DNA of 39,442 nucleotides, taken from the IMG/VR virus record IMGVR_UViG_3300020395_000033, positions 1-39,442 of that record; one strand, 5' to 3'. Shown in pieces: positions 2,158-23,572 of the stretch. The position numbers and the translations under genes are program-made. Origin of the DNA: a virus. A model generated the notes under the pieces. The model was not told the origin of the DNA. It worked only from the letters and a program-made list of their open reading frames with translations, and ran no database searches. How positions within the stretch are numbered: the first letter of the stretch is position 1; every line of letters starts with the position of its first letter.

Positions 2158-2186
2158 TTGACTAAACCTACATATACTGATATAAT
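2158..2186 (+). promoter_or_regulatory. Near-consensus sigma70 promoter (TTGACT-17-TATAAT)
   Basis: TTGACT (2158-2163) and TATAAT (2181-2186) are 17 bp apart. The start should fall near 2193, about 18 nt before the ATG at 2211. It is the best-matching host-type promoter in the window. Confidence 0.8.
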
Positions 2187-3267: not shown

Positions 3268-3290
3268 CACCCGAAAGGGTGCTTTTTTTT
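3266..3290 (+). terminator. Rho-independent terminator with GAAA loop
   Basis: AGCACCC (3266-3272) pairs with GGGTGCT (3277-3283) around a GAAA tetraloop and runs into eight T residues (3283-3290). It closes the glycosyltransferase unit just before the late promoter of the baseplate block. Confidence 0.9.
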
Positions 3291-3297
3291 GTCGTGG

Positions 3298-3305
3298 CAT
3301 AAATA
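3298..3305 (+). promoter_or_regulatory. T4-type late promoter motif (CATAAATA)
   Basis: CATAAATA differs from the T4 late consensus TATAAATA at one base. It lies directly after a terminator and 27 bp before the ATG of gp25, where a late promoter for the baseplate block is expected. T4-like phages recognise it with gp55 sigma and the gp33/gp45 activators. Confidence 0.65.
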
Positions 3306-3331
3306 ACCAGAGGAAAGTATATCAACTTTGA

Positions 3332-3739: not shown

Positions 3740-3743
3740 AATA

Positions 3744-5705
3744 ATGCCAGTCACACAGTTTACTAACTTAGATTTTGATCAAATTAAGGCACAGATAAAG
3801 AATTATCTGTCAGCGAACTCGAATTTCACTGATTTTGACTTTGAGGGATCTAATTTTGCGATTTTAATCGATACTTTAGCGTACAATACCTATATTAACT
3901 CCTTTAATGCGAACTTAGTTGCTAATGAATCGTTCCTAGACTCTGCTACATTACGTGAAAATGTGGTTTCTTTGGCACGAAACATAGGATATGTACCTAG
4001 ATCTAATACTGCTGCTAAGGCATCTATCACTTTTAGGGTAGAAATTGATGATGCTGCTTCTCAAGTACCTTTTGTTACCTTAAAACCTGGTTTAGTGGCG
4101 GTTGGACAAGCAAATCAAAGCACATATCGCTTCTCTATACCTGAAGCAATCAGTGCAATCGTTGAAAATCATACAAATGATGATGGTAGTGTAAGTAGAG
4201 TTGCTTATTTTGGTACTCAAACCAATCCTATTACTGTTTATCAAGGAAGTTTGGTTGAAAATACCTTTCTTGTGATGACAAATCAAGATCAACGCTTTAT
4301 TTTAGATAATCCTCAGATAGATAGCTCCACAATTACTGTTTTTGTAAGTAAGAACAATACATCTGGGTTAGGAAGACAATTTAAAAAGATCGATAACATC
4401 CTAAATTTAAGCAAAGATTCGGAAATTTTCCTAATACAGGAGATTCAGGACGAGAAATTTGAGATTTTATTCGGTGATGGGTTCTTTGGTAAGAAATTAG
4501 AGAACAATAATCAGATCATAGCACGTTATATTGTAACAGATGGTGCTAAAGGTAACGGTGCTAAGGCATTTGACTTCCAAGGAAGCATTATTGATCAAAA
4601 TGGAGCAACTAAGATACCAAAACAGAACGTATCCATTACTACTGTACAAGGTGCTATAAACGGTTCTGACATAGAGAACATCAACTCTATCAAGTATATG
4701 GCTCCTCGGATGTATTCCGCACAATACAGGGCGGTTACACCAAGGGATTATGAGGCAATTATATCACAGATATACCCTGCGACAGAATCTGTAGCAGTAG
4801 TTGGTGGTGAAGAAATGGATCCACCTCAATTTGGTACTGTTAGAATTAGTATTAAACCTAAAAATGGTACTTATGTATCTGATTTTGATAAACAATACAT
4901 TAAAAATGAGTTAAAGAACTACGCTATTGCTGGTATTAACTCAAAGATTGTTGATCTTAAGGTGCTATATGTGGAGATTGATTCAACAATTTATTATAAT
5001 ACATCACAAGTTGCTACTCCAGATACATTAAAGACTAAAATTACCAATGCTTTAGCCACTTATTCCAATACAGTTGATATTAATAAGTTTGGTGGTAGGT
5101 TCAAGCACAGTAAAACGGTTCAGTTGATTGATAGAGTTCATAATGGTATTACATCAAACATCACTAAAGTACGTATTAGAAGGGATTTAAAGGCACTTCT
5201 AAATCAATTTGCTCAGTATGAACTATGTTTTGGTAATAGATTCTTTATTAACCCTGAAGGATATAACATTAAGAGTACTGGATTTAAGATTATTGGGCAT
5301 GATAAGGTTGTTCATCTAACTGATGTTCCTAATAAGGATGAAAAAGGAAACTTAGATGGATCTATGAAGGGTGTTTTGAGTATTGTTTCTCAAGACGAGA
5401 ACAGTACATTTAAGATTATTGCTAAATCTGTTGGTACAGTTGATTATAAAAAAGGTGAAATATTAATCAATACGATTAATATAGTATCAACTGAGGCTGC
5501 TAATGATGTTGTTGAGATACAAGCATTCCCAGATTCAAATGATGTAATTGGTTTGAAAGACTTATATCTTAGTTTTGATGTTTCTAATAGTAAGATAAAT
5601 ATGGTTAAGGATGTAATTGCTTCTGGCGAAGATGTATCAGGAATCGTGTTCTCCAGAGATTATTATACCTCAAGTTATTCAAACGGAGAACTAGAGAGAA
5701 AATAA
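3744..5705 (+). CDS. gp6: Baseplate wedge subunit gp6 (Baseplate_J-like)
   Basis: 653 aa against 660 aa in T4. The N-terminus (FTNLDFDQIK, then DFEGSNFAILIDTLAYNTY) and the early SFLDSATLRENVVSLARNIGY segment are typical of gp6. The central segment MAPRMYSAQYRAVTPRDYEAI is the Baseplate_J/gp6 core signature. In T4, gp6 forms the continuous dodecameric ring that holds the wedges together and changes shape during sheath contraction. The stop abuts the start of the giant ORF with no spacer (TAA at 5703-5705, ATG at 5706), so the two are almost certainly co-transcribed and translationally linked. Confidence 0.93.
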   Translation: MPVTQFTNLDFDQIKAQIKNYLSANSNFTDFDFEGSNFAILIDTLAYNTYINSFNANLVANESFLDSATLRENVVSLARNIGYVPRSNTAAKASITFRVEIDDAASQVPFVTLKPGLVAVGQANQSTYRFSIPEAISAIVENHTNDDGSVSRVAYFGTQTNPITVYQGSLVENTFLVMTNQDQRFILDNPQIDSSTITVFVSKNNTSGLGRQFKKIDNILNLSKDSEIFLIQEIQDEKFEILFGDGFFGKKLENNNQIIARYIVTDGAKGNGAKAFDFQGSIIDQNGATKIPKQNVSITTVQGAINGSDIENINSIKYMAPRMYSAQYRAVTPRDYEAIISQIYPATESVAVVGGEEMDPPQFGTVRISIKPKNGTYVSDFDKQYIKNELKNYAIAGINSKIVDLKVLYVEIDSTIYYNTSQVATPDTLKTKITNALATYSNTVDINKFGGRFKHSKTVQLIDRVHNGITSNITKVRIRRDLKALLNQFAQYELCFGNRFFINPEGYNIKSTGFKIIGHDKVVHLTDVPNKDEKGNLDGSMKGVLSIVSQDENSTFKIIAKSVGTVDYKKGEILINTINIVSTEAANDVVEIQAFPDSNDVIGLKDLYLSFDVSNSKINMVKDVIASGEDVSGIVFSRDYYTSSYSNGELERK

Positions 5706-8700
5706 ATGAGTCTAGATTTCGATAAGAGAGTACAAGTCAATACTATAATTGAGAAGCAACTTCCTCAATTTTTAGTATCCGATTTTCCAAACGCAACTGA
5801 GTTTTTTAAACAGTATTACCTCTCACAAGAATTTCAAGGTGGTCCAACCGATTTAATTGATAATTTTGATCGTTATCTGAAGGCAGATAATCTAGTTCCT
5901 GAAGTTGTTATCGGAACTACATCTATTACTTCTTATATTAATGAGATTGATAAGACAATTACAGTTGAATCCACAAAAGGATTTCCTGATGAATATGGTC
6001 TATTAAAGATTGATAATGAAATAATCACTTATACAAGTAAAACAGATACTAATTTCTTTGGTTGTATACGTGGTTTTAGTGGTATTACTGGTTTTGGTAT
6101 TGATATAGCATCATCTTTAGATAATACAAATAATCAAGATTTAGTATTTGAGGAAACAAGTTCTGCTGAACATACTAATGGTTCTACAGTTACTAATCTT
6201 AGCGTACTTTTCTTACAAGAGTTCTATCATAAACTCAAAAAAACCTTTTTACCTGGTTTAGAAGATAATGATTTTGTAGAAGGTCTTGATGTTGGTAATT
6301 TCATTAAGCATGCAAGATCTTTCTATCAATCAAAAGGTATTGCTGAATCAGTTCATATATTATTCAAAGTATTATATGGTGTAGATTCTGAGGTATTGGA
6401 TCTAGAAGAAAGGTTAATTAAACCTTCTAGTGCTGAGTATATTCGTAGAGAAGTTGTTATTGCTGAAGCAATTATTGGAGATCCAGCTTTATTGATTGGA
6501 CAAACTATAACAAAATCAACAGATCTAAGAACATCTGCTTCTGTATCGGAAGTTGAAATATTTGAAAGAAATCTTGGTATTGGAGCAAATATTAGAAAAA
6601 CTTACTATAAAATTTCTTTATTTGTTGGATTTAGTGATAGAGATCTAATTGAAGGAACATTTACTATTCCAGGTAAAACAAAAGTTTTAGGTACAACACC
6701 AGCGAATTCCTCTGTAATAACCGTAGATTCTACAATAGGTTTCCCTAGTAGTGGAACATTAGTTAGTGGAACAGGGGCAGCTCGTATCAATAATTCTAAT
6801 ATTACATATACATCTAAGACTGTAAATCAATTCTTAGGGTGTAGTGGTATAATTACTCCTATTGAAGACACTGATGATATAAGAGCAAATGAAACTGTAT
6901 TTGGATATGAAAATGGTGATTTAACCAGAAGAGTTGACTTAAGAATCACTGGTGTTTTATCAGAGTTTGTTCCTGATGGAAATATTAATTTAGTTGAAGA
7001 ACAAGAAAAGATTTATAGTAAGAATGTTGGAGAGAGTATTCCTTCTTATGATAGTCAAAATATTAATGACCAAGATAGAACATATAAGCAAATATTTGCC
7101 AATTCATGGAAATATAACACAAGTAGTCGTTATCAAGTGGAATCATGGGTAGGAAACCCAGTTCTATTAAGTAAAATTGATAAAACTAGTCTGGCTATAG
7201 GAGATGTTATTGAAATATTTGAAAGATATGGATTACAAGTTCTTGGAACAGCAACAATATCAGGTATTGATGAGAGTGATAATTCCTTAACTGGATTGGA
7301 TAACTTAAATCTTAATATTGATCCAAACAAAAAATATGATATTCGTAGAGCTATAAAGAAAGCAAAAACAACTGGATATTCTAATGTAGTTTCTTTAGGT
7401 GATAATGAAAATACTTATCTTGCTGATTCTTTAAATGTATATGTTGATGGTAATACTGAAGGATACGTAGCATCAAACTCATTGCCAAGTTATGATATAG
7501 CAGTAGAACTTTTTAAATCTTCATTTGAAACTGGTAATAACGATACATTGAGTCTACCACAACAGGTAGATCCATTAGATCCATCTATAGCAATTGATTA
7601 TCTTCAAATTAATTTTAGTTCACCTACTAAATTTAATACGGGAGATGCTGTAATATATCAAGCAGTAGATACAGTGGGAGTAGCAGCAACAACTCTTGTT
7701 GGAGTATCTACTTTAAACAATGATAATACAACAAGAGTATTTTATGTTGATGTAACACCAGATAAAACTGGTATAAAATTACACGATTCTGTTGGTTCTA
7801 TTGGTATATCTACTGTTATTTTAAATAAACCAGATACTTTTGATCTTGGTGGTGTTAATCATGTATTCACTCTTCAGGATCATTATAATAGAGATTTAAC
7901 TTATAATCCTATATTAAGGAAGTTTCCATTATCACAAGATCTTTATATAACTGAATTAGGTGAAGATGCTACTGATAATGTAGGTGTATTGATTGATGGT
8001 GTTGAAATTAGATCATCATTAGGTGAAGATGCTGTTGAATATGGTGAAATAACAAATATTGATGTTTTTAATAGTGGTGAAGGATATGATGTATGTAATC
8101 CACCAAAATTAGTAATTGAAAATCCTGTTGTTGGTGGTGCTACTACAGCATTAGCAGAACCAGTAATTAATGGAACTGTTAAAGAAGTTATTATTGAAAC
8201 GCAACTTTTTGATATTGATACATGCCGTTCAGTTTCATTAACTGGTGGTAATGGTAAAGGATGCCTTTTAGAACCTGAAGTTGGTCCTAGATTTAGGGAA
8301 ATTAAATTTAATAGTCAAGATGTAATATTTAATGGTGGTGTTGATCCAGTAGAAGAAGTCATTGCATTTGAGGATGCTCATAAACTATTCAATGGTGAAA
8401 GAATTTTTTATGATAGTAATGGTAATGAGGAGTTGGGAATAGGTGAATTTAAATCTAATGCTACATTAGTTACTGATTATTTGGTAAATGGTTCTGCATA
8501 TTTTGTAAAAGTTCTTAATCCTAAGAATGTAAGACTATTCAATAGTGAAATTGATGCTTTAACTGGTCCAAATGGTATTAATACTATTGGATTCTCAACT
8601 ACTAGTAATGGAATTCATAAATTTAGAACAGAATCAAAAAATACAATAAAATCTGTTAAGGTTATTACTCCAGGAACTGGTTATTCATATAAGAAACTTA

Positions 8701-11700
8701 TCGTTAAACCTGTTGGTATTTCTACTGCTTATGATTCTATCCATTTTGAGAATCATGGGTTCAGTGAAGGTGATACTATTAACTATGCCACAATGGAACA
8801 TAATGGATCTAGTGATCCAATAACAGGATTAAGTACTTATAATGAATATACTGTAATTAAGATAGATGATAATACATTTAGACTTTCTGATAATGGTGTT
8901 GTAGATGCTCCAGATTGGGAAGAAGCAAAAGCATATGTTGTTGATGATTTAGTAAAAGAATCGGATAATACTTATATTTGTGTAACTAATCATACGTCAT
9001 CCAGTGCATTTATAGATGATTATTCTAAATGGGAGTTAACTAAGAAAAAGGACGATTATGTAAGGGGTAAGTATGTTAATCTTACTAGTACAGGAACTGG
9101 ATACAATGTATTCAAGTATCCAGATATAAAAGTTAAAGCTAATGTTTCTTTTGCTTCAACTGTTACTGGAGAAATTAATTTTACTCCTATTATAACTGGA
9201 AATATTATAGGTGCTGATTTATATGAAAAAGGTTCTCATTATGGATCAGAAACCGTAAATCATGATAAAGGTCCAGATACAACTATACAAAATGGTAAAG
9301 AAGCTGAACTTAATGCTATTGTATCTGGTGGTAGAATTGTTGAGGTTCAAGTTCTTAATAGAGGAAAGGAATATTATTCACTACCTGAAATTAAGATAAG
9401 TGGTTCTGGAAATGGTGCTAAGTTTAAACCTGTTATATCTGACGGTCAATTAATTGAGGTTGTTGTAATAAATCGAGGAATTGGATATTCTGCTGCTGAT
9501 ACTTTTGCTTATGCCGATTCTAGAGGTAAAAATGGATTATTTGAGTCAAGAGTTAAAAAATTATATTTGGATGATTCGTATAAACATGGAGAGTTTCATC
9601 TAGAACCACATGGAGATGATAAAGTTACTCTAAGTGCTCATGGATATGGTGCGACATTACAAGGAGCATTTAATAAACTTAATACTGGTGGTCACTCCGC
9701 TATTATTGGATGGGCATATGATGGTAATCCAATATACGGTCCTTATGGTTTTGAAGAAGCAGATAAGTATGGTTCAACCATAAAGAGGATGGAGTCTGGG
9801 TATAGAACAAATCGTGTTAAGATTGAGAATAATATTAATGCTGGTATTAGACCTTCATTAGCAAAATTCCCTATAGGATCATTTGTTAATGATTGGACAT
9901 ATACAAATGAAGGGGATCTTGATGATCATAATGGTAGATTCTGTAAGACTCCAGAATTTCCTAGAGGAATATATGCCTATTTTGCTACAGTTGATGTTAG
10001 TTTACAACCAGTATATCCATATTTTATAGGAAAAACTTATAGATTACCATTTATTAAAGATAATAATAGATTGGATCAATCATTTGATTTTAACAATTCA
10101 ACTTTATCAAGAAATACATTCCCATATAAAGTAAATGAAACATATGCGGATAATGATTTTATTATAGAATCTAATGAGATTGTTAGACAAATGTCTACTA
10201 TAGAATCTGTTACTACAGGTTCTGTAACGGATTTCCAAATATTAGATGGTGGATCTGGATATAAAGTTGGTGATTTTACTGTATTTGATAATACGGGAAC
10301 TAATGGAACTGGTGCTAGAGCTATAGTTGATGAAATTGTTGGTATAGGTGTATCGACATTAAAAACAGAAACACTTAAATATGAGAATGCTGTGTTTACT
10401 TGGGATAATGACTTCCAAGTATCTGCTCATTATAGACCAGAAATTAAATTTGGTAATAATGATAGTGTTGTAGTATCTGGGTTAAGTACATCAAATTTAG
10501 CATTAACAGATTCATTTGCTGTTGGAGTCAAATCAGATACGATGACTCTGGTAAAAGAATTACCTGCTAATACTAATCCTAACGGAACAGTTGAGGATAT
10601 CTACGTTAACACAATATCAAATCTTGTTTCAATTGGATCATCTATTAAGATTGATGATGAATACCTAAAAGTACTGAATTTATATCCTATAGGATCAATA
10701 ATCAGGGTTAAGAGATTTACTAACGCTCCAATTGTTTCTTATGGAGCAACAATCAACACTGTTGCTGATAAAATTACTATTCCAGTTAAATCTAACAAAT
10801 TCCCTTCAAGAACTAATGATTTAGTATATTTTAACTCTACTTTATCAGTTGGTTTAGGAACTACTGGTGGTTCTTCTATCAATTATTCTATTGGTGAGAA
10901 TAACAATCAAGTTCCAATTCCTGCACAAAGTATTTACATACCAAATCATCCATTTGAAACAGGTCAGAAAGTATTCTTTAGAAAGGATGTATTATCACAA
11001 CCTGCTGCCACTTCACTTATGATGAGTGAACTGATTGATGGTAGTGGAATTCAGAATATTCCAGATATATCTTCTGGTGTATCTGAGATGTATGTTATTG
11101 ATAAGGGTACTGATTATATTGGTTTAGCGTTTGATGCTGGTAAGGCACACACTACTAATGGAGTATTTTTCTATGGTACTGGATCAAATAGTTATGAATA
11201 TTCTTTAGAATCTGATTATGAACAAGTAACTGGTGATATTAGTAGATTAGCGACTACAGTAATGACAAAAGTTGCTGCTGCTGATACAACAACACATGGA
11301 TTGAGTAATGGTGATGTTATTAGTTTGGAAGTTATTCCAAATCATGTTGTTGGGTATGGAAATACTCAAGAAATAGATGTTCGCTATAATGAGGAATTTG
11401 AAAAGTTAACATTTAATCCTCAACAATTTGATTCTACTGGTATATCTACTACTAGTGATACTATTGATCCAAATACGATTACAATAGTAAATCATGGATA
11501 TAAAACAGGTGATAAGGTATTTTACGATAGTGATGATGTTATTAGTGGACTTGAAATAGGATCATATTATATTCATGAAATAGATTCATCAAAATTCTAC
11601 TTAACTGAAACTCTAAAGGATGCTCAAGATTTCCCAGCTAAAGTCATTGGAATTACTACTGTAGGATCTACAACTGCTACACATACATTCTCTATTATTA

Positions 11701-14700
11701 ATCCACAAATTACTGTTGTTAAGAATTCCACATTAACTTTTGGATTATCAACAGCAACATTATCAGGATTTGATTTTAATCTTTATTATGATAAGGAGTT
11801 TAAGAATAAATTTGATAATTCTGATGATACTACAGAATTTAATGTTAGTAAATCTGGAACTATCGGTGATGATGTAGTTGGTGCTGCTTTATCCATGACT
11901 TGTACTAAGTCTACACCAAGTAAATTATTTTATTCACTTGATAAATCTGGTTATATAAGCACTGCTGATAAAGATGTTCCTAATTATTCTGAAATAGTAT
12001 TTGTTGAAAGTAACTATAATGGTGATTATGAAATATTTGATGTTGATAATGAGTCATTTAAAATTTCACCAAGATCTATTCCAGAATTAAATGAATATAA
12101 GGTAGAAGATTGTGATAAATTAGAATATTCAACAAAAGCTTCTGATATTGTTGGTTCAATTAAAGGTTTAAGAACAATATCGACTGGTTTTTCTTATAAG
12201 AAGGCTCCTAAATTTAGTTATGTTTCTAGTGATAATGGTAGAAATGCTAATATTGTAGCATTATCAACTTCAATTGGTAATATAAACCAATTAAGAATTA
12301 ATGATATTGGATTTGAGTATTCTTCTGATAATACATTAAGACCAGAAGTTTTCATATCACCAATTATTGGTGTAGATGATTTGGATGAAGTTGGATCTAT
12401 TAATATTATTAATGGTGGATTAAATTATCTTAGTTCTCCAGATTTATTACTTTATGATCCACAAAATAAAAAAGTTGTTGATTCAAATTCATTAGTAGCT
12501 ATAGTTCCCGAACAATCAATTTCTGAGGTTGAAATTATTGCTCCAATAAAGGGTTTAAGTTCAGTAAATCATAGAATAGTTTCTATCAATAATTCTAATG
12601 GTATAGGTATCAACTCAATGACAGTGGAGAGTGAAACTGTTGCTGTATGTTACCTACAAACCCCTATAAATGGTTTTAAAAACGCTCCATTCGCTGAAGG
12701 TGATGAAATCTTCGTTGAAGGTATTCAACGTGTTGGAGAGGCAGGTATAGGTGTTAGTAACACTGGGGCTACAGCAACTACAGTAGTTGGTGAGGGATTT
12801 AACTCCTCAGATTATGATTATAGTTTCTTTAAAGTAAAATCTTATACAGCATCTAACCCAGATGTATTGAGATTTGATCTAGTTGGTGTTACGACTTTCC
12901 CTGGTGATCCTAAAGTTTTCCAATCTGGTTATGCTAATATTGTTAATAGAAAGGTTTATCCAGAATTACAAGTAATACAAAATAGATCTGAGTTCTCTAT
13001 TGATGAATCTATATCAATTAAAGAATCTGGTACTTATATCAAGAAAAATATTAAAGTAGTAGATTATAGAGACGATTTTATTAAAATTGACGGTAAAGAT
13101 GAATTAAAAGTTGGAGATAGATTTATTGGTGATGTTAGTGGAACAAGTGCTACTGTAACATCTATTGATGTTGGTAAAGGTAAATTTAATGTTGATTATT
13201 CAAGTAGAATTAACGTTGGATGGAATGATGATATTGGTAAATTAAATGAAGATTATCAAGTTACTTCCGATAACGATTATTATCAGAATTTATCATATTC
13301 CGTTAAGAGTCCAATTACTTGGGATAAGTTTGTAGATCCAGTTAATAGACTAGTACATCCATCAGGATTAAAGAATTTTGGTGATGTTGTAATACAAAAT
13401 TCTGGAAATTTTGCTGGAGTAACAACACAATCTATAGAACCAACAATTGTATTGGATGTAATTGAGCAAAGAAGAGTTGATACTATTAATAATTTTGATT
13501 TAGTTGTTGATTATGATAAACTTGATAATAAGTCAAAATTTATAGAATTCCAGAATGTAAAGTTAACAGATTATACAAAATGTTTAACAAATAGAGTACT
13601 AATACATGATGATATTAGTCATAGGTTCTCTAGTGTTGGTTTACAGGATTTATTTACTGAAATTGAAGAAATTAATGGAAATTTTGCAAAATATTTAATT
13701 CAGGTAACAGATCCAGATACATTTGATGTTCAAATAAGTGATTTGGTTGTTTTAACCACAACTGAAGATGCTTCTTTATTAGAAAAAACAAGTGATTATA
13801 GTAATATTAAGTTGGGTGATTTTAGTACTGAAGCTGATGCTGAAAGAAAGGCTTTAATTTTTACACCAACAGATTTATATGATAAGGATCATGATATTAA
13901 GGTATTAAAAACTACATTTAGTACAGATGTTCCTGGTGGTGGAGTTTCATCAACAAATCAAACTTTTGGATGTGTTTCTTTAAATGGATCCAATACAACA
14001 ATTAGTAGTGGTACAACTAGTGTTACTGGTACTATTACAGAAACTTTAGTTAATGGTGATTATGAATATAATTTAAGTGTTGTTGATCTTGATTTAAACA
14101 GTACAGATGCTGGATATAATAAAGTTATTCCAGATAAGATTGGATCTTATTTAAGTTCTTGGGAAACAAGACAGAGATCTAATGGAACAACCTATAGAGT
14201 TGGATTTGCTGTTACTGAAATAACTTCTTCAACGACTGCTAAATTGATAGCTGTTAGTGAAGAAAGTATTAGTAATATTATTGTACATACTCCATTAACA
14301 AATATTACAGAGGATACTTATTCTTCAGTAATCGTTGGAACTGCTGGAGATATTGGATTCTTAGGTAGAGATGATCAGCAACCTGTTGTGTTGGGAATTA
14401 CTACAACAACCATTTACAGTTCACCTGATAACGATTTTAATGGATCGTTAACTGATATTCTTATATTAGATAATTTGCGTAGAGATTTAACATATAATGA
14501 AGTTATTCTTAATATTGATCATACAACTGATGAACTACAGTTAATAGAGTCTGTACTTGATACTGGTAAATTTGCTATCACTCATGATCCAATTGGTATT
14601 ATTACTGCTAGACATGAAAATAATACAGTTTATCTTGATATTATTAACGATAGAAATTCATCTTTAAATGCTGGTGTAAATGTAGTTGGATTAGGAACAA

Positions 14701-17700
14701 CAACTGCTGGAATAGGAACATATAGATTTAATGTTACAGGTCAACCAGAAGGTTCTGAAAGATCTTTAAGATTTGAATCAAAATATTCTGGAGAATCTGG
14801 AATATCAACAATTACACGTTTTTCTACATCAATTGACAGTTCTTTAAAATCATTGATTCGTGTTTCTTGTGGAGAAACAACTGTAATGCATCAAGTTATT
14901 ATGATGCAGGATCAAGATGGTGATGCTGTTGTTGTTGAATATCCTTATATTTCAAATAGTGGAACTGATGGAATTGGATCATTTGATACTTCAAATCCAG
15001 AATCTGGAATAATATCATTTAATTTTATTCCAGATGCTGAGTACACTTCATCTGTGGTTGAGGTTCAAGCGTATAATTCAATATTCCAAACTGTAAATGA
15101 TTTTGAAAATGAATCGGATATATTACATTATGGACCAGTTGTTAATGATCTAGTATTATCTGCTTATGATGGTCCTAATGGTGATAGGGCAAATAAGGTT
15201 AACTTTGATCTTAAACACGAAGAAACACCAATCTATTATAAGAGATTTAATCCAAGTGATTCTTCACAATTAGATTTAGTAAATGGTAAGTTTACTTTAC
15301 CTAATCATTTCTTTAACACTAATGAAGAGTTAACATATACTCCATACTCTTCCTTTATTGGTGTTCCTGCTATTGCTCCAGGAATTGCTTCTACTGAAGG
15401 TGCTTCTGGTATTATTAATACTTTACCTGAAAAGGTTTATGTTAAAGCAGTTTCTGGAAGTGAATTCTACTTATACAGTAAACAGGAATTTATTGCTGAT
15501 GGAGAACCTATAACATTTACCGATTCTGGATCTGGTAATGCTCATAAGTTCCAGATGAGTAAGGTTTTAAGTAAAACTGTAATTGGATTAGATGGAATTG
15601 TTCAACAACCAATATCCTATACAGCAGTAGAACATACTTTACTAGATGATGTACCTACTAAAGTAACTACTACAACTTCACTTATATTAAATGCTACTCA
15701 GAATGAAGGTTTAAATCTTGAGATAGAACAGTTTGCTTTGAGTGGAATTAGTTCAGTACAACCAAGAGATGTATTGAAAGTTGGTGATGAATTTATGAAG
15801 GTTATTGAAGTTGGTGTAACAGATTCCAATATTCAAATGCCACTTGAGGGTGATTTAGATGCGAATGGTAAATGGATACCACGTTTACCACCTATTAACT
15901 CTGAAGATGGAACTATAGCAGTAGTTAAAGTGAAGAGAGGTACTTTGGGTACTTCAGCACAGAATCATACTGCTGGAACAGAAGTTAGAGTTCATAGAGG
16001 ATCCTTTAATATTGTTGATAGTACAGTTTGGTTCTTAGATCCACCAAAAGGTAATACAAGACAGAGAAGAAGTGAAACAAATTTACCATATGTTAGAGCA
16101 GAATTTAGTGGAAGAACTTTCTTAAGAACAAATTATGATACCAATATGATATTTGATGATATATCAGATTCATTCACTGGTATTGGAAGAACTTATACAT
16201 TAACTGTTGGTGGTGCTAATACAATAACAGGTGTTGGTGTTGGAAATGGTATTCTATTCATTAACGGAGTATTCCAAACACCATTAACTCTTAATAATTT
16301 GGGTAATAATTATGAATTTGAAAATGATACTAATGTAGGTGTATCAAGTGTTATGTTTACTGGAATTACTTCTGAAAATGGAAGTAGAATCCAATCTGAA
16401 TATGATATCAACCAAAACCAGATTCCAAGAGGCGGTTTAATTGTTTCTATGGGTTCTACTCCTGGTCTCGGTTATGCTCCTCTTGTTGGTGCTAGAGTAA
16501 AACCAGAGAAGAAATCTTTTGGTAACGTTGTTGGTGTAATTACCAGTTTAGTTGGATTTGCTCATTCATCTCTTACTAATATTTCTATCGAAGATGCTGT
16601 ATATGATAATGTTAGTGGAATTATAACAGTAACAACTAACAATCAACATAATTTCTCATTAGATAATCCACCAACAGTTTTACTCAATGAATTAGAATTT
16701 GAGTGTAGTTCATCATATGCTGGAGTAACAACAACAGTATTCAATGATGATAATCGTTCGATACCTGTAGTGGCAATTACTTCAGAGAGAACTTTTGAAG
16801 CATTCTGTGGTGTTTCTACAATTAATCACAACTATGTTTCAGGTGGAACTTACTATAATGGTGGATATGTTTGTGAGTTTTATGATGATTTAACTTTTGG
16901 ATCTGGATATAGAGAACCAGTTTCGATTGGTGTTACTGATATTGCTTATGAGCACAGATTTGTATCTGCTGACAGCAATACTATTGTTAAGAACACTGGT
17001 GGTACAAATAGTACACAATATCAACCAACAAACGCAGAATATGAATCACATACTGGTGATTTACTTTTAACTATAGGACAGCATACTTTAGAAGAAGCAA
17101 CTGCCTATGATATTGATACTGCTTCTTATAGTGCTACTACAGGTAAATTAACAATCAATAAAACAGGACATGATTTTGTTGTTGGTGATTGGATTAAGAT
17201 TGTTGATCATGGAATAACATTTAAGTGTTCTATGGATAATAATGGATCAACTCATTCATATCCAAGACCAACTGATCCAATTAGTGGCAAATGGATTCAA
17301 GTAACCAATAAAACTGCCAATACCTTTAAGGTAGAAGTAGGAACATCTCCTATTGTTAAATTTACACCAACAACAGGAACTACATATGATCCTAATACTG
17401 GATTAATGGTATTGGAAATTGGAGCACATAATCTAACTGTTGGAACAAGTATTAAGATAGCAGAAGAAGGATTGAAGTTTAGTTGTGGATTTAATGGAGC
17501 AACTGGAACTGCTGCTGAGAAATCATATCCTAGATCTAATGGTAACGATCCATTCTATGATAGTGCTTTTAAGATTGAAGATGTAACTGAGACATCAATA
17601 ACAGTTCAGGTATTAACAACTATTCCATCTACTAACATAGATCCTCATACTTTTGTTGATGCTGTAGCAGATTGTGTAGAAACTGGTGGTGATTATGTTC

Positions 17701-20700
17701 ATCAATATGATTCATCTTTGGATGGATGTATATTGAAAGCAAAGGATACAGTTATTCTCAATGATGATACATTAACCTTTACTTGCTCTAGAGATGAGCA
17801 TTATAGTAAGCATACCTATCCAAGAGCAACTGATCCTGCTTCAGGTGCTACATTAGGTATTGATCACGCAAGTTACGATACTATTCGTGTAAATGTTGGA
17901 TCAGGTGGTGGTGCTGGATTTGGTGGTTATGTAACTGCTAAGATTGCTGAAAATGATCATAAGTATGTAAGTTCTTCCTCAATGGGTCTTATGGCTAATG
18001 CTGGAGGACCATTTACAATAACTGACGCTGATTATGATCCTCAAACAGGTATAATGACAGTTACAACATCTGCTACAAATAGTTTCGCAGCAGCAGATGT
18101 TACTGGTATATCAACTGCTTCTTACAACCCAACTACTGGTGTTGTAACATTAGAAACAGCATCTGCTCATGGATTTAGTAATGGCGATTATATTAAGATT
18201 GCTGAAAAATCTTTAGTATTTACATGTGCTCAAGATGATGATGCTACCCAACATGCTTATCCAAGAAAAACTGATCCTATTCATAATAAGTGGATCCAGA
18301 TTTCAAATACATCTGCAACTACTTTTGATATTCAGTGTTTACTTAATACACCTTCTAGTAATACAACAGCACATAAGTTATATTCTGCAGAACCAAATAA
18401 TATTCAGAAAGCAAATAATACTGTTGAATTTGCCCAAGAATGTATAGTATTCACATGTAATAAGGATCGTCATGCTACAACTCATGCTTATCCAAGAATA
18501 TCAGATCCAATATTTGGTTTACCTGTTGGTGTAGAAACCATTGTTAATGCTACAACATTTACAATTAATGTAGGTAAATCACCTGCTGGAACTGGTGGAT
18601 CTTTAGAGTTTGATATTAAGAATGGTGGAGCAAATTATGTAAACCCAGAAATTATAGCACCAGATCCTGCTTATCAGAGTATGTCTATTGAAGGTATTTC
18701 TAGATTAAGTGTAGGATCAACTACAGAGTGTGGTGCTAATCTACTACTTGATATTGAAGTAGATACTAGTCCTGCTCCTGGTATTACTACATCATTAACA
18801 CCAACAGGTGCTTCTTATAATCCAACTACTGGTATTTTGGGTCTTACTTTCGATAGTACTCATCTAAGCGATTCTGGAATTAAGAATGGTGAAATGATTA
18901 CTATCGCCACTGATTCTCTATCATTTAGATGTGATATGGGAAGTAATGATATTAAAAAATATCCAAGATCAGTAGATCCAGCTTGTAAGGAAGATTTAAA
19001 AGTTACTAACTTATCCTCTACTGGTTTTGATGTTCAAATTGGCAGATCACCTATTGTAAATTATGATGTTAGTGCTGCTTCTTATAGCGGAACTACAGGT
19101 AAAATGGTTCTTACAATTGGTGCTAATCATGGACTTAAGAAGGGATCTAGTATTAAATTAGCAGATGAATCGATAGCATTTACTTGTGGTTTTAATGGTG
19201 GTGGAACTAAATCTTATCCAAGAACTACAATTGATACTCATACTGCTCAAGCAGGAACTTCTTATGATCCAATAAATGGAATTTTAACAGTAACTACAAC
19301 ATCTGCTCATAATATGAGAAATGGTGATTGGGTTAAAATTGCTGATAATGCTTTATCCTTCAAGTGTACTTACGGAACAGGACAGCATATTTACGTTGGT
19401 GGAACTTTAACTAATGGTTTAAAAGTAACACCTGTTGGTTCACCATTTGATCAAGATAGAACTATTACCGATGCTCAATATGATCCATCTACTGGTTTAT
19501 TAACATTAGAAATAGGATCTCATACGTATGATACTAATGATTTTGCTGAGATAGTAACTCCAATGGACTTTACTTGTAGTGCTGATGGTCATGCTACAAC
19601 TCATAGTTATCCAAGAGCTACTGATCCAGCATATCAGCAAGGATTACAGATAGCTGATGTAGGAGCAACCAGTATTAAACTTAATGTTGGTATTGTTGAT
19701 GATACAAGTAGAACAAAAACATACCCAAGATCTACAGATCCTATTAGTGGTAAGTGGATCAGAGTTTATGATGCTTCTGGTTCAACATTCAAAATAGATG
19801 TACTACAAGGAGTAGAATCTACTAATAGATCTAATCATGACTTTATGGGATGTGTTGCTGATGCTATAAGCCAAAAACGTGATAGAGCATATGATGCTCC
19901 TATTGAAATTCTTTCTGCAAATCAAGCAGCAGGAACAATAACATTACAAGTTGGTAAAACTGGTAATACAGATGCTCACACATTTAATTCTGGTTCAACA
20001 ACTGCTGGTGCTGTGATTTCTGGTGGAAATTATACACATACATTTATTGAATCAAAACCTAATAGTATTACTAGAGGATATAATAGTAATAATCAATTAC
20101 ATTCCATTCAAAACTTTAAAGTATCACGACCTGGACATTCATTCTCTATCGGTGATAAGTTTAAAGTTGTTGGATTAGTTACTTCTGCTTTAGTTCATGA
20201 ACCAGTTCATGAATTCCAATTAAATGTTGCTAGAACATCAAATGATTACTTCTCAGCATGGCAATTTGGTGAAATAGACTTTATTGATAATATTAAGTTC
20301 ATGCAAGATGGAACCAGAAGAAGGTATCCATTATTCTTGAATGGTCAATTATTGAGTTTTGAGAAAGATGAAACCGATCCATTATCTGCTCAAATAGATC
20401 TTAATGCTATTCTATTGATATTTGTTAATGGTGTAATTCAAACTCCTGAGATAGCATATCAGTTCTTTGGTGGAACATCATTCACATTCACTGAAGCACC
20501 AGATGAAGGTGATAAAGTAGATATATTCTTCTATAAAGGACAAGATGGAGTTGATATTAAGATAGTTGATATTGATGAATCTATCAAACGTGGTGATGAA
20601 GTTAAGATTAATAAGCATCGTAGTATAGCAGGTACAAGAGATCAAGTTGAGGAAAGAACTGTTAAAGAAATTCTTTCTTCCGACTTAATTGAAACTGATG

Positions 20701-21920
20701 TTTATACTGGACCAGGTATTAATGAAAATGACTTCAAACCTCTTGATTGGATTAAGCAAAAGAGAGATAAGTTTATTAATGGTGAAATAGTTTCTAAAGC
20801 AAGAGATTCTATAGAACCACAAATTTATCCTACTGCTAAGATTATAGGTGATTTTACCAATACAACTATAGGTAAGGATGGAACTGATTCTGGTATTTTT
20901 GTTGATGATGCTCATGTATTCCTATATGAAGATTTGTATAATCCAAATATAGATCCAGGTGATCGTTATTCTATTAACGTTGATCAAGTGGATGCTGTCA
21001 TATATTCTCCAGAGAATAATGATTTTGAACAGGCAAACATTACTGCTACTGTTGGTAATGATGGAACTGTAGGGTCATTAACTGTAGTAGATGGTGGTAA
21101 TGGTTATGATTCAGGATCTATCAATTTATTAATTGGTGCTCCAATTGGTGTTGGTGTTGGTACAATGAATCGTGAAGAATTTGAAGTTGCTGGTGTATCA
21201 GAATTTGCTAAAGCAACTGCTACTGTAGTTAATGGTAGTATAGATCCAAGTACAGTTTTAATAACAGATGCTGGTAAAGGATATAGTGTTTCTAATCCAC
21301 CACAAGTTATTGTTCCTTCAGAAGCAACAGATTTTGAGAAAATATCCAAAATCACTAATGTTCAAGGTTGGACTGGTATTATTACTAAGATAGAAGCTAC
21401 TACTGGAACTAATGGAAATGCTGCACTTAAGTTTGAATATCAAGTAGAAACTAATCAATTAGCATCAGATCTTCTTGTTGGATATCCAGTATTCATCCAC
21501 GATACACAAATTGGAGATGGTGTTATTTCAATAGATGCTGATGATGCTAGTGTTGTTGGTGTAGGAACAACATTCTTAGATAATGTTTATAAAGTTCATC
21601 AAACTCAAGCTGTTCAAAGAACAGGTATTATAACATGTAATGTTTCTAGCACATCCAATATTTCTGGATTGATTCAAGAGGGGCAATATGATCAAACTAA
21701 CCTTGGTATTACTACTTGTTTAGGTAGAATATCTTGGGGTAGATTATATAATCCTTTAGATGGTATTGATAGGGATGCTGACAATCCATTAACACTAACA
21801 GTTTCTGGTAAAACCACTAATTCTGGTTTATCTACTTTCCCAACAATTCAGCGTAGAACCTATGATCCTAGCTCTCATAAAGGGTTAAGAAACACTGGTG
21901 CTATTAGGACTATTGTATAA
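5706..21920 (+). CDS. Giant 5,404-aa modular virion protein in the gp7 position
   Basis: One uninterrupted frame of 16.2 kb lies between gp6 and gp8, where T4 has gp7 (1,032 aa). Residues 1 to about 330 are helix-rich (FLVSDFPNATEFFKQYY, LFLQEFYHKLKKTFLPG) and probably attach to the baseplate. A GFP...E-I-I-T-Y-T-S-K motif occurs near 94 and again near 345. W1071-W1109 resembles a chitin-binding-type-3 (CBM5/12) module. Residues 1330-1351 carry a YHYH-type motif (GWAYDGNPIYGPYG). GxGY beta repeats are scattered throughout. Residues about 3780-4735 hold nine F-x-C / YPR repeats. Near 4800-4900 and at about 3520-3550 there are FVNGVIQTP-type modules common in phage fibres. It is probably a baseplate-anchored fibre or adhesin. 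The gp7 equivalence is inferred from position only. Confidence 0.85.
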   Translation: MSLDFDKRVQVNTIIEKQLPQFLVSDFPNATEFFKQYYLSQEFQGGPTDLIDNFDRYLKADNLVPEVVIGTTSITSYINEIDKTITVESTKGFPDEYGLLKIDNEIITYTSKTDTNFFGCIRGFSGITGFGIDIASSLDNTNNQDLVFEETSSAEHTNGSTVTNLSVLFLQEFYHKLKKTFLPGLEDNDFVEGLDVGNFIKHARSFYQSKGIAESVHILFKVLYGVDSEVLDLEERLIKPSSAEYIRREVVIAEAIIGDPALLIGQTITKSTDLRTSASVSEVEIFERNLGIGANIRKTYYKISLFVGFSDRDLIEGTFTIPGKTKVLGTTPANSSVITVDSTIGFPSSGTLVSGTGAARINNSNITYTSKTVNQFLGCSGIITPIEDTDDIRANETVFGYENGDLTRRVDLRITGVLSEFVPDGNINLVEEQEKIYSKNVGESIPSYDSQNINDQDRTYKQIFANSWKYNTSSRYQVESWVGNPVLLSKIDKTSLAIGDVIEIFERYGLQVLGTATISGIDESDNSLTGLDNLNLNIDPNKKYDIRRAIKKAKTTGYSNVVSLGDNENTYLADSLNVYVDGNTEGYVASNSLPSYDIAVELFKSSFETGNNDTLSLPQQVDPLDPSIAIDYLQINFSSPTKFNTGDAVIYQAVDTVGVAATTLVGVSTLNNDNTTRVFYVDVTPDKTGIKLHDSVGSIGISTVILNKPDTFDLGGVNHVFTLQDHYNRDLTYNPILRKFPLSQDLYITELGEDATDNVGVLIDGVEIRSSLGEDAVEYGEITNIDVFNSGEGYDVCNPPKLVIENPVVGGATTALAEPVINGTVKEVIIETQLFDIDTCRSVSLTGGNGKGCLLEPEVGPRFREIKFNSQDVIFNGGVDPVEEVIAFEDAHKLFNGERIFYDSNGNEELGIGEFKSNATLVTDYLVNGSAYFVKVLNPKNVRLFNSEIDALTGPNGINTIGFSTTSNGIHKFRTESKNTIKSVKVITPGTGYSYKKLIVKPVGISTAYDSIHFENHGFSEGDTINYATMEHNGSSDPITGLSTYNEYTVIKIDDNTFRLSDNGVVDAPDWEEAKAYVVDDLVKESDNTYICVTNHTSSSAFIDDYSKWELTKKKDDYVRGKYVNLTSTGTGYNVFKYPDIKVKANVSFASTVTGEINFTPIITGNIIGADLYEKGSHYGSETVNHDKGPDTTIQNGKEAELNAIVSGGRIVEVQVLNRGKEYYSLPEIKISGSGNGAKFKPVISDGQLIEVVVINRGIGYSAADTFAYADSRGKNGLFESRVKKLYLDDSYKHGEFHLEPHGDDKVTLSAHGYGATLQGAFNKLNTGGHSAIIGWAYDGNPIYGPYGFEEADKYGSTIKRMESGYRTNRVKIENNINAGIRPSLAKFPIGSFVNDWTYTNEGDLDDHNGRFCKTPEFPRGIYAYFATVDVSLQPVYPYFIGKTYRLPFIKDNNRLDQSFDFNNSTLSRNTFPYKVNETYADNDFIIESNEIVRQMSTIESVTTGSVTDFQILDGGSGYKVGDFTVFDNTGTNGTGARAIVDEIVGIGVSTLKTETLKYENAVFTWDNDFQVSAHYRPEIKFGNNDSVVVSGLSTSNLALTDSFAVGVKSDTMTLVKELPANTNPNGTVEDIYVNTISNLVSIGSSIKIDDEYLKVLNLYPIGSIIRVKRFTNAPIVSYGATINTVADKITIPVKSNKFPSRTNDLVYFNSTLSVGLGTTGGSSINYSIGENNNQVPIPAQSIYIPNHPFETGQKVFFRKDVLSQPAATSLMMSELIDGSGIQNIPDISSGVSEMYVIDKGTDYIGLAFDAGKAHTTNGVFFYGTGSNSYEYSLESDYEQVTGDISRLATTVMTKVAAADTTTHGLSNGDVISLEVIPNHVVGYGNTQEIDVRYNEEFEKLTFNPQQFDSTGISTTSDTIDPNTITIVNHGYKTGDKVFYDSDDVISGLEIGSYYIHEIDSSKFYLTETLKDAQDFPAKVIGITTVGSTTATHTFSIINPQITVVKNSTLTFGLSTATLSGFDFNLYYDKEFKNKFDNSDDTTEFNVSKSGTIGDDVVGAALSMTCTKSTPSKLFYSLDKSGYISTADKDVPNYSEIVFVESNYNGDYEIFDVDNESFKISPRSIPELNEYKVEDCDKLEYSTKASDIVGSIKGLRTISTGFSYKKAPKFSYVSSDNGRNANIVALSTSIGNINQLRINDIGFEYSSDNTLRPEVFISPIIGVDDLDEVGSINIINGGLNYLSSPDLLLYDPQNKKVVDSNSLVAIVPEQSISEVEIIAPIKGLSSVNHRIVSINNSNGIGINSMTVESETVAVCYLQTPINGFKNAPFAEGDEIFVEGIQRVGEAGIGVSNTGATATTVVGEGFNSSDYDYSFFKVKSYTASNPDVLRFDLVGVTTFPGDPKVFQSGYANIVNRKVYPELQVIQNRSEFSIDESISIKESGTYIKKNIKVVDYRDDFIKIDGKDELKVGDRFIGDVSGTSATVTSIDVGKGKFNVDYSSRINVGWNDDIGKLNEDYQVTSDNDYYQNLSYSVKSPITWDKFVDPVNRLVHPSGLKNFGDVVIQNSGNFAGVTTQSIEPTIVLDVIEQRRVDTINNFDLVVDYDKLDNKSKFIEFQNVKLTDYTKCLTNRVLIHDDISHRFSSVGLQDLFTEIEEINGNFAKYLIQVTDPDTFDVQISDLVVLTTTEDASLLEKTSDYSNIKLGDFSTEADAERKALIFTPTDLYDKDHDIKVLKTTFSTDVPGGGVSSTNQTFGCVSLNGSNTTISSGTTSVTGTITETLVNGDYEYNLSVVDLDLNSTDAGYNKVIPDKIGSYLSSWETRQRSNGTTYRVGFAVTEITSSTTAKLIAVSEESISNIIVHTPLTNITEDTYSSVIVGTAGDIGFLGRDDQQPVVLGITTTTIYSSPDNDFNGSLTDILILDNLRRDLTYNEVILNIDHTTDELQLIESVLDTGKFAITHDPIGIITARHENNTVYLDIINDRNSSLNAGVNVVGLGTTTAGIGTYRFNVTGQPEGSERSLRFESKYSGESGISTITRFSTSIDSSLKSLIRVSCGETTVMHQVIMMQDQDGDAVVVEYPYISNSGTDGIGSFDTSNPESGIISFNFIPDAEYTSSVVEVQAYNSIFQTVNDFENESDILHYGPVVNDLVLSAYDGPNGDRANKVNFDLKHEETPIYYKRFNPSDSSQLDLVNGKFTLPNHFFNTNEELTYTPYSSFIGVPAIAPGIASTEGASGIINTLPEKVYVKAVSGSEFYLYSKQEFIADGEPITFTDSGSGNAHKFQMSKVLSKTVIGLDGIVQQPISYTAVEHTLLDDVPTKVTTTTSLILNATQNEGLNLEIEQFALSGISSVQPRDVLKVGDEFMKVIEVGVTDSNIQMPLEGDLDANGKWIPRLPPINSEDGTIAVVKVKRGTLGTSAQNHTAGTEVRVHRGSFNIVDSTVWFLDPPKGNTRQRRSETNLPYVRAEFSGRTFLRTNYDTNMIFDDISDSFTGIGRTYTLTVGGANTITGVGVGNGILFINGVFQTPLTLNNLGNNYEFENDTNVGVSSVMFTGITSENGSRIQSEYDINQNQIPRGGLIVSMGSTPGLGYAPLVGARVKPEKKSFGNVVGVITSLVGFAHSSLTNISIEDAVYDNVSGIITVTTNNQHNFSLDNPPTVLLNELEFECSSSYAGVTTTVFNDDNRSIPVVAITSERTFEAFCGVSTINHNYVSGGTYYNGGYVCEFYDDLTFGSGYREPVSIGVTDIAYEHRFVSADSNTIVKNTGGTNSTQYQPTNAEYESHTGDLLLTIGQHTLEEATAYDIDTASYSATTGKLTINKTGHDFVVGDWIKIVDHGITFKCSMDNNGSTHSYPRPTDPISGKWIQVTNKTANTFKVEVGTSPIVKFTPTTGTTYDPNTGLMVLEIGAHNLTVGTSIKIAEEGLKFSCGFNGATGTAAEKSYPRSNGNDPFYDSAFKIEDVTETSITVQVLTTIPSTNIDPHTFVDAVADCVETGGDYVHQYDSSLDGCILKAKDTVILNDDTLTFTCSRDEHYSKHTYPRATDPASGATLGIDHASYDTIRVNVGSGGGAGFGGYVTAKIAENDHKYVSSSSMGLMANAGGPFTITDADYDPQTGIMTVTTSATNSFAAADVTGISTASYNPTTGVVTLETASAHGFSNGDYIKIAEKSLVFTCAQDDDATQHAYPRKTDPIHNKWIQISNTSATTFDIQCLLNTPSSNTTAHKLYSAEPNNIQKANNTVEFAQECIVFTCNKDRHATTHAYPRISDPIFGLPVGVETIVNATTFTINVGKSPAGTGGSLEFDIKNGGANYVNPEIIAPDPAYQSMSIEGISRLSVGSTTECGANLLLDIEVDTSPAPGITTSLTPTGASYNPTTGILGLTFDSTHLSDSGIKNGEMITIATDSLSFRCDMGSNDIKKYPRSVDPACKEDLKVTNLSSTGFDVQIGRSPIVNYDVSAASYSGTTGKMVLTIGANHGLKKGSSIKLADESIAFTCGFNGGGTKSYPRTTIDTHTAQAGTSYDPINGILTVTTTSAHNMRNGDWVKIADNALSFKCTYGTGQHIYVGGTLTNGLKVTPVGSPFDQDRTITDAQYDPSTGLLTLEIGSHTYDTNDFAEIVTPMDFTCSADGHATTHSYPRATDPAYQQGLQIADVGATSIKLNVGIVDDTSRTKTYPRSTDPISGKWIRVYDASGSTFKIDVLQGVESTNRSNHDFMGCVADAISQKRDRAYDAPIEILSANQAAGTITLQVGKTGNTDAHTFNSGSTTAGAVISGGNYTHTFIESKPNSITRGYNSNNQLHSIQNFKVSRPGHSFSIGDKFKVVGLVTSALVHEPVHEFQLNVARTSNDYFSAWQFGEIDFIDNIKFMQDGTRRRYPLFLNGQLLSFEKDETDPLSAQIDLNAILLIFVNGVIQTPEIAYQFFGGTSFTFTEAPDEGDKVDIFFYKGQDGVDIKIVDIDESIKRGDEVKINKHRSIAGTRDQVEERTVKEILSSDLIETDVYTGPGINENDFKPLDWIKQKRDKFINGEIVSKARDSIEPQIYPTAKIIGDFTNTTIGKDGTDSGIFVDDAHVFLYEDLYNPNIDPGDRYSINVDQVDAVIYSPENNDFEQANITATVGNDGTVGSLTVVDGGNGYDSGSINLLIGAPIGVGVGTMNREEFEVAGVSEFAKATATVVNGSIDPSTVLITDAGKGYSVSNPPQVIVPSEATDFEKISKITNVQGWTGIITKIEATTGTNGNAALKFEYQVETNQLASDLLVGYPVFIHDTQIGDGVISIDADDASVVGVGTTFLDNVYKVHQTQAVQRTGIITCNVSSTSNISGLIQEGQYDQTNLGITTCLGRISWGRLYNPLDGIDRDADNPLTLTVSGKTTNSGLSTFPTIQRRTYDPSSHKGLRNTGAIRTIV
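8916..9038 (+). other. Chitin-binding-type-3 (CBM5/12)-like module within the giant protein
   Basis: Residues 1071-1111 read W-x-x-AKAYVVDDLV, then NTYICVTNHTSSSAF and finally KWEL. This is the W ... Y-x-x-D-x-V ... Y-x-C ... H-x-S-S-x-F ... W-E-L pattern of small carbohydrate-binding modules found in chitinases and phage tail proteins. Ligand unknown; family assignment by eye. Confidence 0.6.
9693..9758 (+). other. YHYH-type motif within the giant protein
   Basis: Residues 1330-1351 begin HSAIIGWAYDGNPIYGPYG, which matches the YHYH domain pattern (H-x-x-I-x-G-x-AYDG-x-PIYGPYG). This domain is frequent in cyanophage and cyanobacterial surface-type proteins; its molecular function is not established. 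Confidence 0.7.
17034..19905 (+). repeat. Array of nine divergent F-x-C / YPR protein repeats
   Basis: Between residues about 3780 and 4735, a unit of roughly 90-110 residues recurs. Its pieces are a Y-[DNS]-x-x-[TNS]-G-x-[LM]-x-[LIV] strand, K-I-[AV]-x-x-x-[LI]-x-F-x-C, a spacer with His, [SATK]-YPR-x-[TS]-DP, and a KW-I-x-V-like strand. I count nine YPR motifs (Tyr from about residue 3852 to 4673) and nine F-x-C motifs. One F-x-C unit has YVGG instead of YPR, and one unit carries YPR without a preceding F-x-C. The copies are divergent at DNA level, so the duplications look old. Confidence 0.8.
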
Positions 21921-21967: not shown

Positions 21968-23572
21968 ATGCCTGCAATTGTAACTGATCAATTTAGAATT
22001 CTTAATGCTAGTAATTTCGTAGAGAACGTCACTAACGGAAGTAATTCATATTACGTTTTTATCGGACTTGCTAACCCTAAAACACCAACGGAGACTTCAA
22101 AACTCTTTGGTAGAAATTGGGATTGGAATACTGGTGGAACACCTTCTCCTGTAGATAATTTTACAGAAGCATATCATGCTGGTGATACTGTTTTGTATGG
22201 TAAGAGAATTACTGCTGACAATATTCGTAGAGTTATCAGGAAAGTTACTTGGGAACCAAATACAAAATATGATTTTTATAGAGATGATATTAGTTTAGAT
22301 AATAAAACTAAAAATACTAATGTATCAAATCTATATGCCTCAAATTATTATGTCATAAACAAAGAATTTAAGGTTTATGTTTGTATATCAAATGGTTCTA
22401 GTGGATCTAATCCAAATGGAAACATTTCTGCAGATGAACCAAATTTTACTGATTTAGAACCATCTAAAGCAGGTGGTAGTGGTGATGGATACCTTTGGAA
22501 ATACTTATTTACAGTTTCTCCTGCTGATATTATAAAGTTTGATTCTACAGAGTATATTACAGTTCCTAATAATTGGGGAACATCTTCTGATCCTAGTATA
22601 AGATCTGTTAGAGAAAATGCTGATTCAGATGCTAACAGTAATCAGATCAAGCATGTTTATATTGAAAATGAAGGTACTGGATATGGTCCTTTTGAAGGAA
22701 GAGAATGTGAAATTTTAGGTGATGGAAGTGGTGCTAAGGCTAGAGTTGATGCCAGTAATAATAAAATTACAAATGTTGTAGTTAGTGCTGGCGGTAAAGG
22801 TTATTCTTATGGAATAGTTGATTTAGGAACAAGTGGTTCTTCTGGAATAACAGATTCAGCAAAATTAGTTCCCATTATCCCACCATCTAGGGGACATGGT
22901 TTTGATATTTACACTGAATTAGGAACTGATAAGGTTTTGATTTATGCTAGATTTGATGATTCAACTAAGGATTTCCCAACTGATACTAAATTTGCTCAAG
23001 TTGGTATATTAAAAAATCCAACTGTTGCTGATAGCAATACTATTTTTACTGATGGTCAATTTTCTGCTTTAGACGCAATTAAGATTGATGATACACCAGG
23101 TTCTACTGTTACTGGATCTTTAACTATTGGTGAAAAAATATCACAATTAAGAGAAGATGGAAAAACAGCAGAAGCATATGTTGCTTCGTTTGATGTTGAT
23201 ACTAAGGTAATTAAGTATTTTAGAGATAGATCTCTAAATTATACTACTACACAAGATCAAACAGATTATGCTGGAATTGCTAATAAAGGTCAATTCTTTG
23301 ATTTTGAATCTGTTAAGACTAATGGATCACCAGCAAATAAAATTGTAGGTGAAAATGGATTTGATGGACAAGTTTATAGTTCCTTTACTGGTATTACTAC
23401 AACTAGTGTTGATGGAACTAAGGTGGTTAATTTAGGAACTACCTTTAATCAAGGACTATCAACATCAGAGATAAATAAAGGATCGGGTGATTTAATTTAC
23501 CTAGATAATCGACCTTTAATTGCTAGAAACCCTAGACAAAAAGAAGACGTTAAAATCATTCTGGAATTCTAA
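21968..23572 (+). CDS. gp8: Baseplate wedge subunit gp8
   Basis: 534 aa; T4 gp8 is 334 aa, so this is an enlarged homologue. The start AIVTDQFRILNASNFV matches the T4 gp8 N-terminus (AIVTSKFR...). The stretch GSGDGYLWKYLFTVSPAD followed by EYITVPNNW corresponds to the T4 GDGYVWEYLFEIPPD...EYIVVPW segment. The region from about residue 235 to 285 contains two GxGY repeats (GTGYGPF, GKGYSYG) that T4 gp8 lacks and that resemble those in the giant protein and gp14. gp8 is a dimeric wedge component that contacts gp7, gp6 and gp10 in T4. It has its own late promoter, and the DUF4815 gene begins 6 bp after its stop. Confidence 0.87.
   Translation: MPAIVTDQFRILNASNFVENVTNGSNSYYVFIGLANPKTPTETSKLFGRNWDWNTGGTPSPVDNFTEAYHAGDTVLYGKRITADNIRRVIRKVTWEPNTKYDFYRDDISLDNKTKNTNVSNLYASNYYVINKEFKVYVCISNGSSGSNPNGNISADEPNFTDLEPSKAGGSGDGYLWKYLFTVSPADIIKFDSTEYITVPNNWGTSSDPSIRSVRENADSDANSNQIKHVYIENEGTGYGPFEGRECEILGDGSGAKARVDASNNKITNVVVSAGGKGYSYGIVDLGTSGSSGITDSAKLVPIIPPSRGHGFDIYTELGTDKVLIYARFDDSTKDFPTDTKFAQVGILKNPTVADSNTIFTDGQFSALDAIKIDDTPGSTVTGSLTIGEKISQLREDGKTAEAYVASFDVDTKVIKYFRDRSLNYTTTQDQTDYAGIANKGQFFDFESVKTNGSPANKIVGENGFDGQVYSSFTGITTTSVDGTKVVNLGTTFNQGLSTSEINKGSGDLIYLDNRPLIARNPRQKEDVKIILEF

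Follow-up and report, generated by a model that had tools for sequence, protein, structure and literature searches.

A giant gene between gp6 and gp8 of a P-SSM2-like cyanophage carries a gp7-homologous core close to its N-terminus

The giant reading frame and its neighbours

The DNA analysed here (the window) is the 39,442-nt IMG/VR record IMGVR_UViG_3300020395_000033, whose best relatives place the virus with the P-SSM2-like cyanophages (Kyanoviridae). Based on PHROG and Pfam matches, the genes run in the order gp25, gp6, giant gene and gp8 (Table 1), and downstream of gp8 follow a VrlC-type protein, gp13, gp14, gp3 and the small terminase. T4 gene 7 (1,032 aa) sits between genes 6 and 8, and the giant open reading frame (ORF) occupies the same slot, as a preliminary description of the window had recognised.

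Table 1 Features of the giant gene and its neighbours (residues are those of the giant protein unless stated otherwise)
Feature	Position	Strand	Basis
gp25 (sheath initiator), neighbour	3332..3739	+	PHROG, Pfam
gp6 (wedge), neighbour and expected partner	3744..5705	+	PHROG, Pfam
Giant gp7-type baseplate wedge gene	5706..21920	+	phrog_2885 matched by all five slices; ORF call
Predicted N-terminal helices, residues 1-66, well conserved	5706..5903	+	
Collinear trunk, residues 1-2850; end-to-end with P-SSM2, S-SRM01, S-T4, S-CAM7 and ACG-2014f	5706..14255	+	
gp7 core, residues 196-311, FYQSKGIAES..ILFKVLYG motif; matches T4 gp7 724-814	6291..6638	+	Profile comparison
YHYH-family domain (PF14240), residues 1316-1432	9651..10001	+	Pfam
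Poorly conserved stretch, residues 2801-3000 (identity 0.18, gaps 0.45)	14106..14705	+	
Ten full or partial ~85-aa repeats, residues 3806-4702, motif HxYPRxTDP	17121..19811	+	
Conserved C-terminal region, residues 4796-5403	20091..21914	+	
gp8 (wedge), neighbour	21968..23572	+	PHROG, Pfam
VrlC-type structural protein, 2,531 aa	23579..31174	+	phrog_358; DUF4815

The ORF starts with an ATG at 5706, its stop ends at 21920, and it encodes 5,404 aa (predicted mass 588 kDa) with no internal stops. Its 16,212 coding bases make up 41.1 % of the window, which agrees with the single unbroken frame of about 40 percent described earlier. With the given base composition, a run of 5,404 codons without a stop would arise with a probability of about 10^-198, and the other five frames contain 249-922 stops across the same interval. 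The GC content by codon position (about 0.44/0.39/0.12) is constant over the entire ORF. No stop interrupts the frame in two close relatives that overlap each other and come from other metagenomes; one (L004) covers residues 1-3783 at 95.5 % identity and the other (L099) residues 2091-5404 at 94.4 % identity. Against them, dN/dS is 0.13-0.49 in all 300-codon bins. Close relatives thus show an open frame that is subject to purifying selection. An assembly join, or several genes read through, would be suggested by the unusual length and by nothing else; the frame is open in independent contigs and isolates, and the codon signal is uniform and purifying selection acts along the whole gene, so that a chance or artefactual ORF was rejected and we regard its probability as negligible. 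ARAGORN called a tRNA-Arg(tct) at 10838-10933, within the giant ORF; there was no such call in nine related stretches, and it is probably due to chance. The Rfam search gave no match.

Several other features of the window were recorded. The VrlC-type gene is a second giant gene after gp8, where T4 has gp9-gp12. The gp14 neck protein (34667-36076) has a C-terminal extension (residues 174-380) with hits to two wedge families, phrog_708 and phrog_2885, in the latter at positions 1009-1127; judged from these profile matches, neck (gp14) and baseplate (wedge) proteins have a module in common. Immediately 3' of the small terminase gene, adjoining gp16 on its downstream side, lies a lysine-rich 683-aa ORF (37364-39415) for which PHROGs, Pfam and NCBIfam gave no match, and only short pieces of it (residues 48-107) match P-SSM2-type phages. 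It is there, between gp16 and gp17, that an insertion hot spot has been described (PMC3037559). An ArdA-like antirestriction gene is found at 735-1286 (PF07275, E 9e-9).

A relocated gp7 core

Profiles built from 16 diverse N-termini of the family and from seven T4-type gp7 proteins were compared with hhalign, and they aligned with an E value of 5.4e-9 (probability 95.9, 31 % identity over 91 columns). In this alignment FYQSKGIAES..ILFKVLYG of the window protein corresponds to FYSTKGIEAS..FLFKVLYN of the T4-type gp7s. When the N-terminal family profile was searched against all PDB sequences, only T4-type gp7 was found (5hx2/5iv5, E 2.4e-4; 9f4a, E 2.7e-4). The Pfam family Baseplate_wedge (PF23786) was matched by 13 of the 16 N-termini, with a best E value of 3e-7, although the window's own N-terminus, at 0.0036, stayed below the cut-off. 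Similarly, phmmer with residues 1-1000 gave no match in PDB, gp7 being reached by the family profile alone. The C-terminal region, used as a negative control, gave E 0.39 against gp7.

The predicted helices at the N-terminus stand in the same order relative to the core as those around residues 645-675 of T4 gp7, but are not significant alone (E 0.14), and the gp7 match could not be extended significantly to these helices or to residues 300-450. No significant match to T4 gp7 outside the core was found in the window protein. The likeness to T4 gp7 therefore consists of the same slot and one homologous core of about 90 residues; the link is real but small, and as judged from profile similarity it is confined to residues 196-311. 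In T4 gp7 the core is found within the final third of the protein (residues 724-814 of 1,032), near the C-terminus and after about 700 N-terminal residues, an architecture that the window protein does not have. There the core comes near the beginning (residues 196-311 of 5,404), the first ~600 residues of T4 gp7 have no detectable counterpart, and the ~5,000 residues after the core are unrelated to the N-terminal domains of T4 gp7, as far as sequence tells.

With this core, the expectation that the start of the protein resembles a baseplate domain was borne out, and residues 1-1000 are indeed related to baseplate proteins. The earlier wording that the giant stands in place of gp7 is correct for the slot and misleading as to substitution, since a gp7-homologous core is present in a new position. 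We thus read the giant as a gp7 relative with a relocated core, and not as an unrelated substitute. It has been stated that pelagi- and cyanomyophages lack T4 gp7 and that VrlC appears to have taken its place (PMC7029224). In profile comparison VrlC showed no relation to gp7 (E 0.29), and VrlC was rejected as the taker of gp7's part. As the gp7 core was found in the giant and VrlC had no gp7 match, our results do not support the statement; in GenBank records the P-SSM2 protein already bore the name gp7.

Trunk, repeat array and C-terminal region

According to the preliminary description, the protein continues as a mosaic of binding-type and beta-repeat modules. This was upheld for the YHYH-family domain, which is significant (E 2.5e-25, 90 bits against a cut-off of 25), and for the ten repeat copies, but not for carbohydrate binding: CBM_5_12, the only carbohydrate-binding match, was below the Pfam cut-off, as was E1_FCCH, and neither was used. 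The YHYH domain has a predicted metal-dependent hydrolase activity (PMC7824862). In the members checked the HSPIIGWAxDGNPIYG half of the domain is kept, whereas the YHYH string is absent from the window protein and all members checked, leaving the His/Asp set of PF14240 incomplete. The predicted hydrolase activity is therefore doubtful here.

The repeat region matches phrog_5342, tail fiber protein (E 2e-65), a PHROG name that is an annotation and not a test. Among 24 other IMG/VR contigs which contain both flanks, one ORF of 4,272-5,515 aa fills the slot in 23, and in the 24th the slot is interrupted by masked bases (Ns). The full-length IMG/VR relatives have 1-11 repeat copies; in S-SRM01 no copy was detected. 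When these 23 contigs, the window and P-SSM2 were taken together, the total length followed the number of ~85-aa copies with r=0.954 and a slope of 112 aa per copy, a descriptive figure, as the sequences are related and r overstates the number of independent events. Residues 3600-4800 account for 87 % of the variance in length, and the rest of the protein ranges only from 3,943 to 4,264 aa. The relation between length and copy number is thus observed, and the array may act as a spacer which sets the length of an arm.

Conservation of the C-terminal region (identity 0.41-0.56) is similar to that of the trunk. When residues 1-720 and 4780-5404 were modelled with AlphaFold2, the mean pLDDT values were 55.7 and 54.8, respectively, and Foldseek found nothing in PDB at E<=0.001 for either end, so no claim on the fold is made.

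These features bear on two other views of the extension. The giant itself could be the receptor-binding fibre, with its C-terminal tip contacting the host and the gp7 core merely a mount. Its great length would fit such a role, as would repeats in common with proteins annotated as tail fibres and a YHYH domain, which has been tied to host recognition or wall breaching (PMC7029224, PMC7824862). However, the YHYH motif itself is missing, the variability lies in the repeat array and not in the tip, and the C-terminus is too well conserved for a typical host-range tip; we consider this role unlikely. Alternatively, instead of forming free arms, the extension might fold compactly into a thick rim or a second layer of the baseplate. 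Double-layered baseplates have been predicted for cyano- and pelagimyophages (PMC7029224), and a conserved C-terminal region would be expected if it were buried. The repeat-driven length variation of more than 1,000 aa is nevertheless easier to reconcile with a free arm than with a packed layer, and we give the compact arrangement a modest chance, well short of an even one.

Relatives and proposed role

All five slices of the protein match phrog_2885, baseplate wedge subunit, the family of giant gp7-type wedge proteins of cyanomyoviruses, and the best stretches span profile positions 3 to 4178 of 4179. The window protein thus matches the whole profile, and as expected for the family its gene lies between gp6 and gp8. 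Among annotated proteins its nearest relative is gp7 of P-SSM2 (PSSM2_111, baseplate wedge initiator, 5,195 aa, phrog_2885), which has the same slot and neighbour order, 48.7 % identity over residues 1-2843, a YPR repeat array (11 copies by HMM) and the conserved C-terminus. It is 209 aa shorter and differs in the copy number and arrangement of the repeats. Proteins of the slot have 3,895 aa in S-SRM01, 4,225 in ACG-2014f, 4,314 in S-CAM7, 4,749 in S-T4, 4,458 in MED4-213, 4,067 in Bellamy, 6,180 in S-SM1 and about 6,200 in S-ShM2. The window protein is consequently not the longest of its kind, being exceeded by those of S-SM1 and S-ShM2. Any novelty of the giant gene as such falls away, as P-SSM2 gp7 and others up to ~6,200 aa were already annotated; the gene is genuine and striking, yet of a known kind, a fresh member of the P-SSM2 gp7 family.

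SSM1_102 of S-SM1 (T4-GC969) and SShM2_093 of S-ShM2 lie in the same slot after gp6, and the N-terminal helices can be recognised in them, as can the core and YHYH blocks. Both are longer and differ in architecture, with the core block near residue 620, and in the S-SM1 genome two genes, one for gp9 and one for a 1,387-aa wedge protein, separate SSM1_102 from gp8. SSM1_102 is homologous to the window protein in several blocks. The T4-GC969 protein of S-SM1 was detected by mass spectrometry in purified virions (PMC3037559), and the giant proteins of this slot are accordingly virion parts. In S-SKS1 the homologous gene (L088 14001-26372) is broken into several frames, possibly by sequencing errors there.

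In at least one isolate, S-SSM7, the giant can exist as two chains. SSSM7_101 and SSSM7_103 together match both ends of the window protein and are separate genes, with an N-terminal part of 3,007 aa and a C-terminal part of 3,001 aa. The 340-aa gene between them matches the T4 gp9-type tail fiber connector (phrog_677, E 2e-37), and its place hints that the division in S-SSM7 may lie near the point of fibre attachment. The split corresponds to the interval ~2650-3400 of the window protein, within which the poorly conserved residues 2801-3000 fall. One could therefore imagine that the full chain is made and then cut, giving an ordinary gp7 from the N-terminal part and one or more separate fibre or rim proteins from the rest. 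The separate halves of S-SSM7 with the connector gene between them and the poorly conserved stretch speak for it, as do the slot protein of S-CRM01, with just 1,454 aa, and the 874-aa gp7-like protein of pelagiphage Mosig, after which comes a distinct gene with a tail fibre annotation. On the other hand, there is no known cleavage site or link to a protease, the single ORF is kept in 23 of the 24 relatives, and in T4, gp7 occurs as an intact monomer (PMC3004832). We find cutting distinctly improbable. Extension by fusion with genes that elsewhere lie between gp7 and gp8 was also considered and rejected: comparison with g6 and g7 of S-CRM01, the Mosig fibre gene, and gp9 and SSM1_104 of S-SM1 gave no or only weak similarity at the level of modules.

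The giant is, in our opinion, probably a gp7-type wedge protein of a P-SSM2-like T4-type cyanophage, consisting of a gp6-joining core, an outward extension and a repeat spacer. T4 gp7 binds the gp6 dimer in six copies per baseplate (PMC3004832); gp7 connects the inner baseplate with the network of peripheral fibres, and in type VI systems TssG takes the corresponding position (PMC5813253). By analogy, each of the six wedges would have its gp6 dimer joined by the gp7 core in the N-terminal ~310 residues. For this core homology was shown, and the partnership with gp6 is deduced from T4 and from the position of TssG/gp7 in type VI systems. The remaining ~5,000 residues would be a largely beta-rich extension leaving the wedge outwards, made up of a conserved trunk (to ~3680), an extensible array of 1-11 repeats of ~85 aa and a conserved terminal region. 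Its most probable task would be to form, as a single chain, the baseplate's outer rim and arms, a task that T4 divides among the gp7 N-terminal domains, gp10, gp11 and gp12, and the copy number in the array would set the arm length. It is a tentative and rather doubtful step further that one tunable chain per wedge has replaced the whole of the outer baseplate formed in T4 by these domains and proteins. The earlier idea that a protein this long could reach far from the baseplate and act as a built-in fibre is plausible at most: the models of both ends were poor, the C-terminal tip is well conserved, and the halves are separate in S-SSM7, so one continuous chain is not needed. A literature search found no structure of a P-SSM2-type baseplate.

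The present analysis shows where the gp7 core lies and how far it reaches, and it adds the case against replacement by VrlC and the repeat-number rule. The kinship with gp7 through a moved core, contrary to replacement by VrlC, fixes the place of the giant gene in the wedge, and the repeat-number rule ties arm length to the gene in a testable way. Marine cyanophages and pelagiphages rank with the most abundant viruses. If one chain per wedge has indeed replaced the whole outer baseplate, the giant protein would represent a one-protein, tunable baseplate arm built from a relocated gp7 core, with a reach set by repeat copy number.
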